A DNA stretch of 64,000 nt from Elusimicrobiaceae bacterium (lineage in GTDB: Bacteria; Elusimicrobiota; Elusimicrobia; Elusimicrobiales; Elusimicrobiaceae). Under the pieces are notes generated by a model, which saw only the letters and a list, made by a program, of their open reading frames with translations, had not been told where the DNA came from and did no database searches. Shown in pieces: positions 7,970-63,229 of the stretch. Each line of letters opens with the position of its first letter. Position 1 is the stretch's first letter. The stretch covers positions 1-64,000 of the forward strand of contig JAFVFN010000018.1 in assembly GCA_017475405.1 (NCBI GenBank), in the 5' to 3' direction. A program made the position numbers and the translations under genes.

Positions 7970-7997
7970 AAAATATCAAAAAAAAAAAATGCGTCAA
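7970..7997 (-). promoter_or_regulatory. poly-T spacer promoter of the pilin at 7353-7925
   Basis: Minus strand: TTGACG at 7997-7992, a 16-nt spacer made of CA, T12 (7989-7978) and GA, then TATTTT at 7975-7970. An AAGGAG lies just before the start at 7925. One extra T would give the optimal 17-nt spacer. Confidence 0.65.
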
Positions 7998-24604: not shown

Positions 24605-24632
24605 AAGATATCAAAAAAAAAAAACAATGCAA
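24605..24632 (-). promoter_or_regulatory. poly-T spacer promoter of the pilin at 24092-24571
   Basis: Minus strand: TTGCAT at 24632-24627, a 16-nt spacer made of TG, T12 (24624-24613) and GA, then TATCTT at 24610-24605. Confidence 0.6.
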
Positions 24633-37107: not shown

Positions 37108-37135
37108 AGAATATCAAAAAAAAAAAACGCGTCAA
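37108..37135 (-). promoter_or_regulatory. poly-T spacer promoter of the pilin at 36604-37074
   Basis: Minus strand: TTGACG at 37135-37130, a 16-nt spacer made of CG, T12 (37127-37116) and GA, then TATTCT at 37113-37108. The -35 end is only 14 bp from the opposing TATAAT at 37150-37155. Confidence 0.65.
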
Positions 37136-49665: not shown

Positions 49666-52219
49666 TGATTCGTTTCTTCCATTCGCAAATTAATTGCAAC
49701 GCTTCCATCGGGGTCAGCTTATTGGGATCGGCCATTTTGATTTCTTCCACAATCGGAGAAGAAAACAAATCCTTGACCATATCCTGTTCTTTGACCGAAA
49801 TCTTGGCCCCTTTTTTAGCTTCTAAATCTTTTAGCACTTTTTTGGCACGCAGCGTACAAGCTGCCGGCAGTCCCGCCAGCTCCGCTACGTGGATCCCATA
49901 CGAGCGATCCGCCGCACCAGGTTTAATCTGGTACAAAAACGCCAGTTTACTTTCCCCGGCCGCGTTCTTATATTCCTGTGCTTCTACGTGGAAATTCTTC
50001 ACACGTTCATATTTATTTTCCAAATCCACGAGTTCAAAGTAATGCGTGGCAAAGATCACTTTGGCTCCGCCTTTTTGTTTGTAAAGGTACTCCACAATAG
50101 ACCACGCAATGGAGATCCCGTCAAAGGTAGAAGTACCGCGCCCCACTTCATCAAGCAAAATTAAGCTACGAGGAGTCATGGAAGCCAAAATATGAGCGGT
50201 TTCACTCATCTCTACCATAAATGTAGAGTTCCCGCGACTCAGTGCATCGTGAGCACCGATGCGCGTCATAATCCGGTCCACTAACCCAACATGCGCCCGC
50301 ACGGCCGGCACAAAACTGCCCATTTGCGCTAAAATTACAATAATCGCGCTTTGCTTAAGATATACGCTTTTACCCCCCATATTGGGTCCGGTAATCAACA
50401 TAATCTGCGTGTCGGCTTCACCGATACGCAAATCATTCGGTACAAAGCTGCCGGGCGGCAGAGTCTGTTCCACAAGCGGATGTCTACCCTGCTCAATGAT
50501 CAGCTCCGTCCCGTTATCTACAAGGGGCTTGGAGTAATTGCCTTTTAAGGCACACAACGCCAGTGACTCATATACGTCCAACTCGGAAACCAATTGCGCA
50601 AATGTTTTAAATGCCTCAATATGTTGAGACAGCTCTGTGCGGATTTGCCCGAATAAATGCGATTCCAAACGCTGGATTTTTTGTTCCGCATGGGTAATTT
50701 TGTCTTCCAGTTGCTTGAGCTCTTCGGTAATAAAACGTTCTGCATTCACCAGCGTCTGTTTGCGGATATACCCGTAAGGCACTTTGGACAAATGAGACTT
50801 AGTCACTTCAAAGTAGTACCCGTAGACCGAGTTCACACCTACTTTTAAAGTGGTAATGCCAGTTTTGGCGCGTTCGCGCTCACAGATTTCTTCTAAAGTT
50901 TTATTGGTGTTGGTTTTTAACGAGCGAAGTTCATCCAACTCAGCATTAAACCCGGCCCGGATTACATTGCCGTCTGAAACATGCAGCGGCGGAGTCTCGT
51001 TAATAGCCTCGTAGAGCAAACGAGCTTTTTCTTTAAGAGTCGGTAAAATTTGCTCAAATTGTTCTTTTAGGTGCGGAGCTACCGTGGGGTAATTTTCAAA
51101 CCACTGCGCCAGAGCATCAACATTTAGTAGTGAACGTCTTAGTCCCGATACATCACGCGGACTGGCTGTACCGTTAGCGGTACGGGTCATGATACGCTGC
51201 ACATCGGCGATAGTCTCCAATAACGCACTCAAATCGGCAATAGCCGCCTGATTTTTAACAAACGCTTCTACACAATTTTGACGTTGGGTAATTTCACCGA
51301 CGTCTAGCAAAGGATGCAAAATCCATTCTTTGAGCTTACGGCTTCCGATCGCAGTTTTGGTTTTATCTAAAAGTTCCCATAAACTGCCGACGCGTCCTCC
51401 TTCCTGTCCTTTAATCAGTTCCAAAGAAGCTACGGCATTTTCATCAATTTGCAAACACTCTTTAAGTTCCCGGTAAGAAGGAACCAACGTAGCCTGTACA
51501 CTGGGATCGGTCGCATTAATGTATTTCATGACCTGCAATGCACAGGCCAGTGCCCGTTTGTTATTTCCCCAGGCACCTACCGAGGGCCAACTAATCGGCA
51601 GTGTATAGTCGCCATTAAATGCAGCCACCGAGGTCAACGTCAAATTAGACGGGATCACTACTTTTTGACGCAGGGTTTCTAAGGTCTCACGGGTACCAAT
51701 AATTTCGGACGGATTGACTACAGCCAAGGCTGCTGCCAGTCCAGCTAAAGAAGCATCTTTATCATTTTGGTTGACCCAAAATTCCCCCGTTGAAACTTCC
51801 ACACAAGCCAGTGCCCACCCAGCCGGGGTAATATCCAAAGCCAGTAAGTAATTGGCCTGGTTAGCATCTAATAAACTGTCTTCTACCAGTGTACCGGGCG
51901 TAATGACACGCACTACTTTGCGCTCACAGATCTTGGTATCTTTATCAACAGCAGTACTGGTTTGTTCGCAAATACCGATTTTTTTACCGGCTGCTAACAG
52001 ACGCGTAATATAGGTATTACCCGCATGATACGGGATACCGCACATCGGAACTCCGTTGCGCGAAGTTAACGTTAAACCTAGCAGACCACTGACTTCACGA
52101 GCCTGCTCATCAAACATTTCATAAAAATCACCCAAACGAAAAAATAATACAATACCGGGATGTTGGTCCCGAATGGTATAGTATTGTTTCATTAAAGGAG
52201 TCAAAGTGGGTTGTTGCAT
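49658..52219 (-). CDS. mutS: DNA mismatch repair protein MutS
   Basis: 853 residues. The mismatch-binding Phe-x-Glu is in FRLGDFYEMFDEQA (about 27-40). The ATPase has Walker A TGPNMGGKS, LILLDEVGRGTSTFDG and a helix-turn-helix end. It recognises mispairs and recruits MutL. A -10 TACAAT ends 6 nt before ATG, so its mRNA seems leaderless. Confidence 0.97.
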   Translation of the reverse strand: MQQPTLTPLMKQYYTIRDQHPGIVLFFRLGDFYEMFDEQAREVSGLLGLTLTSRNGVPMCGIPYHAGNTYITRLLAAGKKIGICEQTSTAVDKDTKICERKVVRVITPGTLVEDSLLDANQANYLLALDITPAGWALACVEVSTGEFWVNQNDKDASLAGLAAALAVVNPSEIIGTRETLETLRQKVVIPSNLTLTSVAAFNGDYTLPISWPSVGAWGNNKRALACALQVMKYINATDPSVQATLVPSYRELKECLQIDENAVASLELIKGQEGGRVGSLWELLDKTKTAIGSRKLKEWILHPLLDVGEITQRQNCVEAFVKNQAAIADLSALLETIADVQRIMTRTANGTASPRDVSGLRRSLLNVDALAQWFENYPTVAPHLKEQFEQILPTLKEKARLLYEAINETPPLHVSDGNVIRAGFNAELDELRSLKTNTNKTLEEICERERAKTGITTLKVGVNSVYGYYFEVTKSHLSKVPYGYIRKQTLVNAERFITEELKQLEDKITHAEQKIQRLESHLFGQIRTELSQHIEAFKTFAQLVSELDVYESLALCALKGNYSKPLVDNGTELIIEQGRHPLVEQTLPPGSFVPNDLRIGEADTQIMLITGPNMGGKSVYLKQSAIIVILAQMGSFVPAVRAHVGLVDRIMTRIGAHDALSRGNSTFMVEMSETAHILASMTPRSLILLDEVGRGTSTFDGISIAWSIVEYLYKQKGGAKVIFATHYFELVDLENKYERVKNFHVEAQEYKNAAGESKLAFLYQIKPGAADRSYGIHVAELAGLPAACTLRAKKVLKDLEAKKGAKISVKEQDMVKDLFSSPIVEEIKMADPNKLTPMEALQLICEWKKRINE

Positions 52220-53104: not shown

Positions 53105-53132
53105 GAAAATATCAAAAAAAAAAAACAATGCA
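53105..53132 (-). promoter_or_regulatory. poly-T spacer promoter of the pilin at 52488-53069
   Basis: Minus strand: TTGCAT, then a spacer of TG, T11 (A11 at 53114-53124 on the plus strand) and GA, then a TATTTT -10. The T tract is one shorter than in the other four copies, giving a 15-nt spacer. Confidence 0.6.
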
Positions 53133-60297: not shown

Positions 60298-61227
60298 ATG
60301 GAACACAGCGCGAAAATTTTACTGGCCGATGATTCACATGCCATTCGGTTTTTGGTAACCGAAATCCTGACCAACGCGGGATTTACAGTGATACAAGCCG
60401 AAGACGGACAAGAAGCCATCGAAAAAACCTATAAAGAAAACCCAGACCTGCTTATCTTAGACTACGAAATGCCGAAAAAAACCGGTTTTGACGTTGTCAA
60501 AGAAGTACGCAGTCGCACGGGATACTTACATACCCCTATTATTATTTTTACCGCTGTAACCGATAAATCTACCAAACTTGAGGGACTGGGACTGGATATT
60601 GATGACTACCTGACCAAACCGGCCGATGAAGATGAAATCGTGGCACGCGTCAAATTGCTTCTTAAGCGCAGTCAACAGAGAATGGATTCCAACCCGCTCA
60701 CACATCTGCCCGGTAATCCCTCCATCCAAGCACGCGTAGAACGCGAGATTGCCAGCGAAAAACCGTTTGCCGTCTTGTATTGTGACCTGAATAATTTTAA
60801 ATCTTTTAACGATAAATACGGCTTTGAAGCCGGAGATCGCGTACTCAAAACAACCTCTGAGATTATTGTAAACGCGGCCCATCAAGATCCGACCGCATTT
60901 GTAGGACATATTGGTGGGGATGATTTTATTGTGGTTAGCTCCTTTGACAAAGCGGAACCAATCGCCCAAGAAATTACCGCGCAGGTAGACAAAATAGCTC
61001 CTACGTTTTATTCCCAGCAAGATCAGGCGCAAGGATATATGATTTCCACAAACCGCAAGGGCGAAGAAGAAAAATTTCCGTTTTTGGCCATGGGCATCGG
61101 CATTGTACATAATACTCGCCGTCCACTTACTTCGTTTGCCATGGTCAGCAATATCGGAAGTGAACTCAAATGCCTTGCCAAACAACATGAAAAGGGCAGT
61201 TATTATATCATGGACAGAAGGAGCTAA
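60298..61227 (+). CDS. response regulator with GGDEF-like domain
   Basis: 309 residues. A receiver domain (1-125) has DD at 11-12, the phospho-acceptor Asp55, Thr85 and Lys107. A GGDEF domain follows (about 135-305); the signature is GGDDF at 206-210 in place of GGDEF/GGEEF, and LTHLPGN occupies 134-140. The changed acidic residue may lower or abolish diguanylate cyclase activity. No histidine kinase is next to it. It could set c-di-GMP levels or act as a receptor. Confidence 0.85.
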   Translation: MEHSAKILLADDSHAIRFLVTEILTNAGFTVIQAEDGQEAIEKTYKENPDLLILDYEMPKKTGFDVVKEVRSRTGYLHTPIIIFTAVTDKSTKLEGLGLDIDDYLTKPADEDEIVARVKLLLKRSQQRMDSNPLTHLPGNPSIQARVEREIASEKPFAVLYCDLNNFKSFNDKYGFEAGDRVLKTTSEIIVNAAHQDPTAFVGHIGGDDFIVVSSFDKAEPIAQEITAQVDKIAPTFYSQQDQAQGYMISTNRKGEEEKFPFLAMGIGIVHNTRRPLTSFAMVSNIGSELKCLAKQHEKGSYYIMDRRS

Positions 61228-61234
61228 CGCCGCT

Positions 61235-61291
61235 ATGGCCCGCCCTGTTCACAGTCAAGCCACCCCCCCCCGCACGTGCTTCCAACTTTGA
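61235..61291 (+). CDS. short out-of-frame start of the acyltransferase gene (phase-off form)
   Basis: ATG 61235 lies about 12 nt after GGAG and codes MARPVHSQATPP before reading through the C9 tract into a stop at 61289. With one C fewer this frame would run straight into the acyltransferase (RASNFELLRILAM), so it looks like the true 5' end of that gene, switched off in this copy. Confidence 0.6.
   Translation: MARPVHSQATPPRTCFQL
61263..61271 (+). repeat. C9 homopolymer tract at the acyltransferase 5' end
   Basis: Nine consecutive Cs within the coding start region. C8 or C11 would join ATG 61235 to the acyltransferase frame; C9 does not. This is the layout of a slippage-controlled contingency locus. 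Confidence 0.7.
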
Positions 61292-61310
61292 ATTATTACG
61301 CATACTAGCC

Positions 61311-62354
61311 ATGTCCCTGATTGTAGCGCATCACTTTGCGGTACATGGAGGTTTTCAATTTGGCACAGATGTTTTTTCAGTGAACCACTTATGGGTACAG
61401 TTCCTGTCCAGCGGCGGAAAAATAGGCGTCAATGTATTTGTACTGATCTCCGGTTATTTTTTATGTCAGTCAAAAGGCATTTCTCTTGTTAAACTCATAC
61501 GGTTATGGCTTTCCATCTTCTTTTATTCGGTATTATTTGTCGGACTTTTTGTAGGATTGGGTCCTGAATCGTTACAGCTTAAGCCGCTCATTCGAAGCCT
61601 GTTTCCGGTAACTTATTCGGCCTATTGGTTTATCAGTACTTACTTTGTACTCTATTTACTCTCCCCATTTATTAACTGGTTCATCCAAACTTTGTCACAA
61701 ACGAAATACCAACGGTTACTTATTTTATTAACGGTCATGTGGTGCCTCATCCCCACATTTATGATTTCTACATTCCAAAGTAATTCGCTGTGGTGGTTTG
61801 TGTATTTATATTTGTTGGCCGGTTATATTCGAAGTTACGTAAAAGACGGCCGGGCCTATCCGTTCCTTTGGGCAGCTGGTTCTTTGTATCTACTGGCATT
61901 ACTGGCAACCGCAGGTTGTGATGTAGTGGGACTTAAATTTCCACTTGTGGCCAAACACGCTACGTTTTTCTTTGCCATGCAACGACTGCCCACGCTGCTT
62001 ATTTCCTTACTGCTGTTCTTGGGGTTTAAAAACATGCGTCTGGGTTTTAGCTCTTTGATTAATTTATTTGCTGCCACAACTTTGGGGATTTACCTTATCC
62101 ATGAAAATATGTTTGTGCGTCCCTTTTTATGGAAAACAGTGTTTCGCAACGCCTCCTATGCCGGTTCAAATTGGTTAATTCCCTATTCTATCGGAGTCAT
62201 AGTATTAGTATTCACAGGCTGCGCGTGTTTGGAACTCATCCGATTGCATCTTCTAGAAAAATATTACAAAAAATATCTTTATCCCGTAGCCGATTACATG
62301 ACACAATTAAGTCAACGATTTTTTGATTCTAAAATTTTTAGAAATTATCTTTAA
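61311..62354 (+). CDS. acyltransferase family 3 (OafA-like) membrane protein
   Basis: 347 residues from the first in-frame ATG; the natural protein probably starts at 61235 and includes NFELLRILAM just before this point. About nine to ten membrane segments follow. The conserved His pair is in LIVAHHFAVHG at the start, and AYWFISTYFVLYLLSPF lies near 105-121. The family O-acetylates surface polysaccharides or peptidoglycan. It is separated from its start by the C9 tract, so in this copy it is probably silent or made as a shortened form. Confidence 0.8.
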   Translation: MSLIVAHHFAVHGGFQFGTDVFSVNHLWVQFLSSGGKIGVNVFVLISGYFLCQSKGISLVKLIRLWLSIFFYSVLFVGLFVGLGPESLQLKPLIRSLFPVTYSAYWFISTYFVLYLLSPFINWFIQTLSQTKYQRLLILLTVMWCLIPTFMISTFQSNSLWWFVYLYLLAGYIRSYVKDGRAYPFLWAAGSLYLLALLATAGCDVVGLKFPLVAKHATFFFAMQRLPTLLISLLLFLGFKNMRLGFSSLINLFAATTLGIYLIHENMFVRPFLWKTVFRNASYAGSNWLIPYSIGVIVLVFTGCACLELIRLHLLEKYYKKYLYPVADYMTQLSQRFFDSKIFRNYL

Positions 62355-62453
62355 ATAAAACATATAAGGTTTTTAGAAAGCGTGCATATACATATCTTTC
62401 TGAACCCAAACATGTGCATTGTAAAAAGCCCACTTATTTGTTATACTGATTAT

Positions 62454-62665
62454 ACAATTTATCTGTTTTTGGAACCGTATAAGGATACGGACCTCTCTTA
62501 AGAAAAGAGATATATTTGATCCAAAAACAGCCTATTTAGGTACACAAGGACGGCCATCCGCGTGTACCAAGTGTTTCCCGTTTATACGGGAAACCACGGC
62601 TGTTTTGTGAGAGGGTTCAAATATACTCAAACTTAATAGCCGTTTTTTTGTACTTTCCATAACAG
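62454..62665 (+). promoter_or_regulatory. structured P1-P6 leader RNA, copy 6 (pilin)
   Basis: P1 pairs CTGTTTTTGG (62463-62472) with CCAAAAACAG (62521-62530); hairpins CCGTAT/ATACGG and CTCTT/AAGAG inside. TATATTTGA (62511-62519) matches TCAAATATA (62617-62625). P4 is a perfect GGTACAC/GTGTACC. P6 arms CGGCTGTT (62597-62604) and AATAGCCG (62635-62642). AACAG at 62661-62665. -10 TGTTATACT with hexamer 62442-62447. Confidence 0.83.
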
Positions 62666-62680
62666 AAGAGGAGAGTACAT

Positions 62681-63229
62681 ATGGAACAAATACATCCCCG
62701 GCGGGGTTTCACGCTAATTGAGCTATTAGTTGTGATACTAATAATAGGAATCTTAGCAGCAGTGGCCTTACCACAATACCAAAAGGCCGTTGATAAAAGC
62801 TTCTACTCGCAACAAATGGTATTAGCCAAAAACATAAGAAATCAACAAGAAGTATTTTATCTACAAAATGGACGATACGCCTTAGATTGTACGGAATTAG
62901 CCCCTGATTTACCTTCTGGAGGAAGTTTAGAGGAGGATGGCACTATTTATATTACAAATAAAAACCTCCGCATTTACTGCTATAACGGTAGTTCTCGCGT
63001 CTATATTACGGGACCTATCGCAGCTTACGGAGCATTTTTTTATCATCTTCCAGAAGGATATGGACATCCAGAATGGGCAGGCCAACAATTTTGTGGCTTA
63101 GACAACACATCTGGATTTTCTGGCAATCCAGCGAAACATACTCGAGGAAATCATTTGTGTAAACGCTTTGGAGATTTTGCCAATTATGAAGGACAAAAAT
63201 CCAACATGGGAAATGCTTATATTTTTTAA
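62681..63229 (+). CDS. type IV pilin-like protein
   Basis: 182 residues. Leader MEQIHPRRG ends in Gly, then FTLIELLVVILIIGILAAVA and QYQKAVDKSFYSQQMVLAKN. The body differs from the others: FYLQNGRYALDCTEL, then a C-terminal region with FCGLDNTSGF and HLCKRFGD cysteines. GAGGAG before ATG. Confidence 0.92.
   Translation: MEQIHPRRGFTLIELLVVILIIGILAAVALPQYQKAVDKSFYSQQMVLAKNIRNQQEVFYLQNGRYALDCTELAPDLPSGGSLEEDGTIYITNKNLRIYCYNGSSRVYITGPIAAYGAFFYHLPEGYGHPEWAGQQFCGLDNTSGFSGNPAKHTRGNHLCKRFGDFANYEGQKSNMGNAYIF

Follow-up and report, generated by a model that had tools for sequence, protein, structure and literature searches.

Within the 64,000-nt stretch of DNA analysed here (the window), an exact run of nine cytosines separates a Shine-Dalgarno (SD)-preceded start codon from the acyltransferase-3 (AT3) frame that follows it. 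Judged from the sequence of this and related loci, this is quite probably a phase-variable (contingency) gene that codes for a membrane acyltransferase acting on surface glycans and is present in the assembly in its OFF state. The original prediction had named it as a candidate phase-variable surface modifier. That proposal is supported by the long C/G runs in other glycan genes of this genome, by the leaders of pilin genes in a congener and by the (AC)n repeats of homologous genes. The role at the surface would follow from membership in the family PF01757.

Reading frames around the C9 tract

Translation from ATG 61235 yields 18 codons, MARPVHSQATPPRTCFQL, before it reaches a TGA (Table 1). 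The acyltransferase frame (..PPP ARASNFELLRILAM..) follows a stop near 61188 and continues without interruption across the tract up to a TAA at 62352-62354. Upstream of 61311 this open frame contains no ATG, GTG or TTG, by which an alternative start 5' of the tract is ruled out. The sole SD-preceded start for the whole AT3 domain is ATG 61235, reading through the C9. In all these points the original prediction was correct: it had placed a C9 between the two frames, had the first of them end at 61289 and had described the second as uninterrupted across the tract. Its expectation that C8 or C11 would join leader and enzyme holds as well, both lengths being 2 mod 3 and hence equivalent in frame.

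Table 1. Features of the acyltransferase locus and its surroundings, and C/G tracts of at least nine in the same genome (positions refer to the window unless a locus is named)
Feature	Position	Strand	Remark
T12 copies of the promoter-like element	7978-7989, 24613-24624, 37116-37127, 53114-53125 and 223-234 (T12 on minus strand)		
MutS gene	49673-52204	-	intact
Receiver + GGDEF-like gene (response regulator, named by eye)	60298-61227	+	upstream neighbour, conserved in genus
Shine-Dalgarno-like GGAG	61220-61223	+	11-nt gap to ATG 61235
Start codon and leader MARPVHSQA	61235-61262	+	5' of C9 tract
C9 tract of the window acyltransferase	61263-61271	+	exactly nine C, between start codon and acyltransferase frame; gene split
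Acyltransferase-3 frame	61272-62354	+	360 aa, PF01757; no own start before 61311
TGA closing the ATG 61235 frame in the C9 state	61289-61291	+	
First in-frame ATG of acyltransferase frame	61311-61313	+	start there would drop R10 of R-X10-H
Inverted repeats	62440-62660		upstream of pilin gene at 62681
TupA-like ATP-grasp			G11, split
ORF with two ATP-grasp stretches	L166 / L179:13726-15024		G10, in frame
Epimerase/dehydratase in rfb-type cluster			G10, in frame
GT2			C10, split
ChaN-like protein, weak Pfam match			G9, in frame

The tract lies inside a reading frame that ends soon behind it, with the domain frame open; it reaches nine G/C residues, and its unit is not a multiple of three. The cut-off of nine or more used in the field for G/C tracts comes from Neisseria (G9 and up, known genes, PMC5953494). 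Runs of at least eight C give two overlapping matches in the 64-kb window, versus 1.87 expected from shuffled sequences. Such a run is not rarer than chance here, therefore the C9 by itself proves nothing. Its signal is its position, together with the genome-wide and cross-species pattern, and not the bare sequence.

The acyltransferase domain and its N-terminus

The match to PF01757 (E 3e-25, 89.3 bits versus a curated cut-off of 31) aligns residues 6-319 to profile positions 4-323 of 326, i.e., the domain is complete behind the tract. It was the only domain found by profile search in the 360 aa, and a fused C-terminal SGNH domain was not among the results. At the position of the FFXISG motif the protein reads FVLISG, with V second, and the loop behind it has KLIR instead of RXXR; both AT3 motifs are highly, not absolutely, conserved. 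Invariant in an alignment with four homologues (A1) are R2, S4, N5, E7, L8, L9, R10 and H21. Of these, R10 and H21 of the protein (P0001) form the R/K-X10-H motif of helix 1 as defined in PMC7448272. Exchange of the corresponding residues in Salmonella OafA leaves a residual activity of 0.07% for R14A and 0.33% for H25A (PMC7448272).

The usual N-terminus of such enzymes had been placed 5' of the first in-frame ATG, and indeed the PF01757 match begins at NFELLR, before 61311. Translation from 61311 would leave out R10 of the conserved motif and thus very likely give an inactive enzyme. We judge a working start at this position unlikely, since the conserved N-terminus would be lost. That this copy is off, as had been proposed, agrees with both findings: the frame is broken at the C9 and the start at 61311 lacks an essential N-terminal residue.

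Homologues with a repeat at the same site

The closest acyltransferase homologues found in the genome collection belong to two rabbit-gut Clostridia MAGs (L003 and L004; 42% and 39%). They share with the window gene the order of SD, ATG, short leader, repeat and N[FL]ELLRI. Their repeats, however, are a perfect (AC)27.5 and a perfect (AC)11 instead of C9, located between the SD-preceded ATG and NLELLRI, and both genes are in frame. A scan of the two Clostridia genomes gave no further AC run of at least 18 bases in either. In 23 further AT3 loci from the genus no leader repeat of this kind was found, nor in the plasmid and phage homologues that were read; a homologue on a viral contig (L210) has (GAAA)3. 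As to whether the window gene and the two Clostridia genes inherited the leader repeat from a shared ancestor, the backbone of the tree gives no answer.

Genomic context and origin

The upstream receiver/GGDEF-like gene is present in 61 out of 61 genus genomes searched. In the window its 3' end overlaps the GGAG, and the acyltransferase leader starts 8 nt past its stop. The acyltransferase is absent from this position at all 29 congener loci read, in many of which a terminator-like stem follows right after the stop. A search of 65 congeners gave no homologue exceeding 30% identity, and the GC content of the gene is 0.398 versus 0.441 in the window. Both observations suggest that the gene was probably acquired.

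Other C/G tracts in the same genome

Six C/G tracts of at least nine occur in the 1.68 Mb of this genome, five of them in glycan genes, and three split their gene (Table 1). The two halves of the GT2 gene align to successive portions of intact congener ORFs of 351-398 aa, and those of the ATP-grasp gene to residues 15-94 and 103-300 of one intact homologue. Therefore, each of these is a single gene cut at its tract. As a separate observation, the G10 in the ORF with two ATP-grasp stretches is the exact junction of a whole TupA-like ATP-grasp and part of a second one, as if two neighbours had been fused.

Across 60 congeners 45 such tracts were counted: seven in the genome G030 and on average 0.64 in each of the other 59. 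Compared with this mean, six tracts in one genome are unusual (Poisson 6e-5). The long tracts are not due to a missing MutS, as its gene is intact; by the same token the rate of slippage would be held down. Many of the tracts in the other congeners are in frame and situated in ordinary genes (judged by eye to be FtsZ-like, penicillin-binding-like or of other kinds), for which reason a tract alone was not counted as evidence.

These data bear on the possibility that an acquired acyltransferase was knocked out for good by one recent indel and simply shows no other damage yet. In favour of such a fixed pseudogene, the gene does not belong to the common stock of the genus, it is lower in GC, and the single indel is the only lesion seen. 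But three genes are split, each exactly at a C/G tract of at least nine, all belong to surface-glycan functions and none has another lesion; moreover, the homologues have kept a repeat in this place and are in frame. A permanently broken gene is therefore improbable. Less probable still is an error of assembly or sequencing in a tract whose true length is in frame, the gene being simply on. The genome is in 30 contigs of unknown read type and homopolymers are the usual site of indel errors, but the C8 tracts are in frame in five out of five cases (DnaB, a GGDEF protein, ATP-grasp, and TadB-like and KsgA-like genes, the latter two named by eye), as are all A8/T8 tracts inside genes and three of the tracts of 9 or 10. 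The layout of leader plus repeat, common to the homologues, would hold even with a wrong length.

Pilin leaders in other members of the genus

All seven tracts of at least nine in G030 are located in similar leaders of pilin genes (loci L124-L130). These genes resemble the window gene in having an SD, an ATG, a short leader and a C tract ahead of a conserved protein. They differ from it in that the protein is unrelated, the tracts are C9-C12 and the leaders are alike only among themselves. An ATG is followed by about 11-15 codons, ending mostly in ENFIHT or NYFIHT, then by the tract and by FTLIELL. In three cases leader and pilin share one frame (205-220 aa); in the other four the leader runs into a stop after 22-25 codons. 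Thus, genes of one design differ in tract length and frame within a single genome. The G030 leader sequence is absent from the genome of the window acyltransferase. In two further congeners, single pilin genes are seemingly split, with the C-terminal part in another frame past a C9 (L146 in G004) and a C10 (L160 in G069).

Ribosomal or transcriptional slippage at the tract, by which some enzyme would always be made from the C9 form, is hardly to be expected: homopolymers of at least eight can serve transcriptional slippage (PMC3711429) and a shift of +1 (or -2) would be needed, but the homologues have an in-frame (AC)n there and no slippery run, and tract length varies among the G030 leaders. 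Such slippage may exist beside the switch, as a leak.

Two other elements lie upstream of pilin genes in the window. One is promoter-like: TTGACGCG or TTGCATTG is followed by a run of exactly T12 and by GATAT, and the element precedes four pilin genes by 41-52 nt; the T run sits between -35-like and -10-like hexamers and its length is 12 throughout this genome. The copy at 223 is without an assigned gene, and further copies are at L184:13051 and L006:615. This element may represent a fixed class of promoters or else a second switch, one that acts on transcription. The other comprises the inverted repeats (e.g. GTTTCCCGTTTATACGGGAAAC) ahead of the pilin gene at 62681, which have no Rfam match; the only Rfam families in the window are two tRNAs.

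The proposed switch

According to the phase-variation model, translation would begin at ATG 61235 and the length of the C tract would change when DNA polymerase slips on it. A tract of 2 mod 3 would join the leader to NFELLR.. and yield the full AT3 enzyme, other lengths only a short peptide terminating before it. ON cells would then carry an acylated, probably O-acetylated, glycan that OFF cells lack, and the acyltransferase would be one of several such loci in the genome. We infer that length changes occur in the living population and are reversible, and likewise the substrate; the benefit might be avoidance of phages or of the immune system.

In favour of such a switch we considered the frame break without alternative start, the complete PF01757 domain and the loss of R-X10-H from 61311; the six tracts versus 0.64 per congener genome, with five in glycan genes and three splits; the five C8 tracts in frame and the seven G030 leaders, three in and four out of frame; and (AC)n at the same leader site in two homologues, together with known precedents in the enzyme family. 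Counted against it were the intact MutS, the fact that C9 is among the shortest tracts that switch (G9-15 in Neisseria pglI), the count of C8+ runs, which is not above the shuffled expectation, and the lack of a genus orthologue for comparison (65 congeners, >30% identity). The tract data are from one genome of the species, and the length differences are those among G030 paralogues and between homologues.

Comparison with known systems

Multi-locus, repeat-driven surface switching is known mostly from pathogens, which according to a 2025 review may reflect database bias (PMC11868660). Full-text search of a limited library returned only passing mentions of phase variation for Elusimicrobiota. 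We are inclined to think that species-specific repeat phasomes of several loci exist, alongside an intact MutS, in a genus of gut bacteria that has small genomes and is not one of the classical phase-variable pathogens; from gene content and genome size it is probably a member of the Elusimicrobiota, Avelusimicrobium-like. These phasomes would affect glycan genes here and, in a sister species, a set of pilin genes whose C-tract leaders resemble each other. In the leader of this acyltransferase group, different phyla would have repeats of different units. Existing metagenome reads would allow a direct check of such a commensal lineage, with its several loci and among them seven pilin genes whose frame is set by a C tract. 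The lineage also serves as a warning that annotation may record such genes as fragments or pseudogenes.

Among characterized genes, oafA of H. influenzae, coding for a LOS O-acetyltransferase, is likewise an AT3 of a surface glycan whose frame is set by repeat number (PMC6479036, PMC9558356). Its repeat, however, is the tetranucleotide (GCAA)n in another phylum, and its variation and phenotype were shown by experiment. With the pilin-glycan O-acetyltransferase pglI of Neisseria (G9-15) the window gene shares an AT3 with an intragenic G/C homopolymer (PMC5953494), but PglI is an AT3-SGNH fusion (PMC9558356) and the window protein an AT3 of 360 aa only. Thus, the mechanism and the enzyme family are already known, and it is the organism that is new for them.
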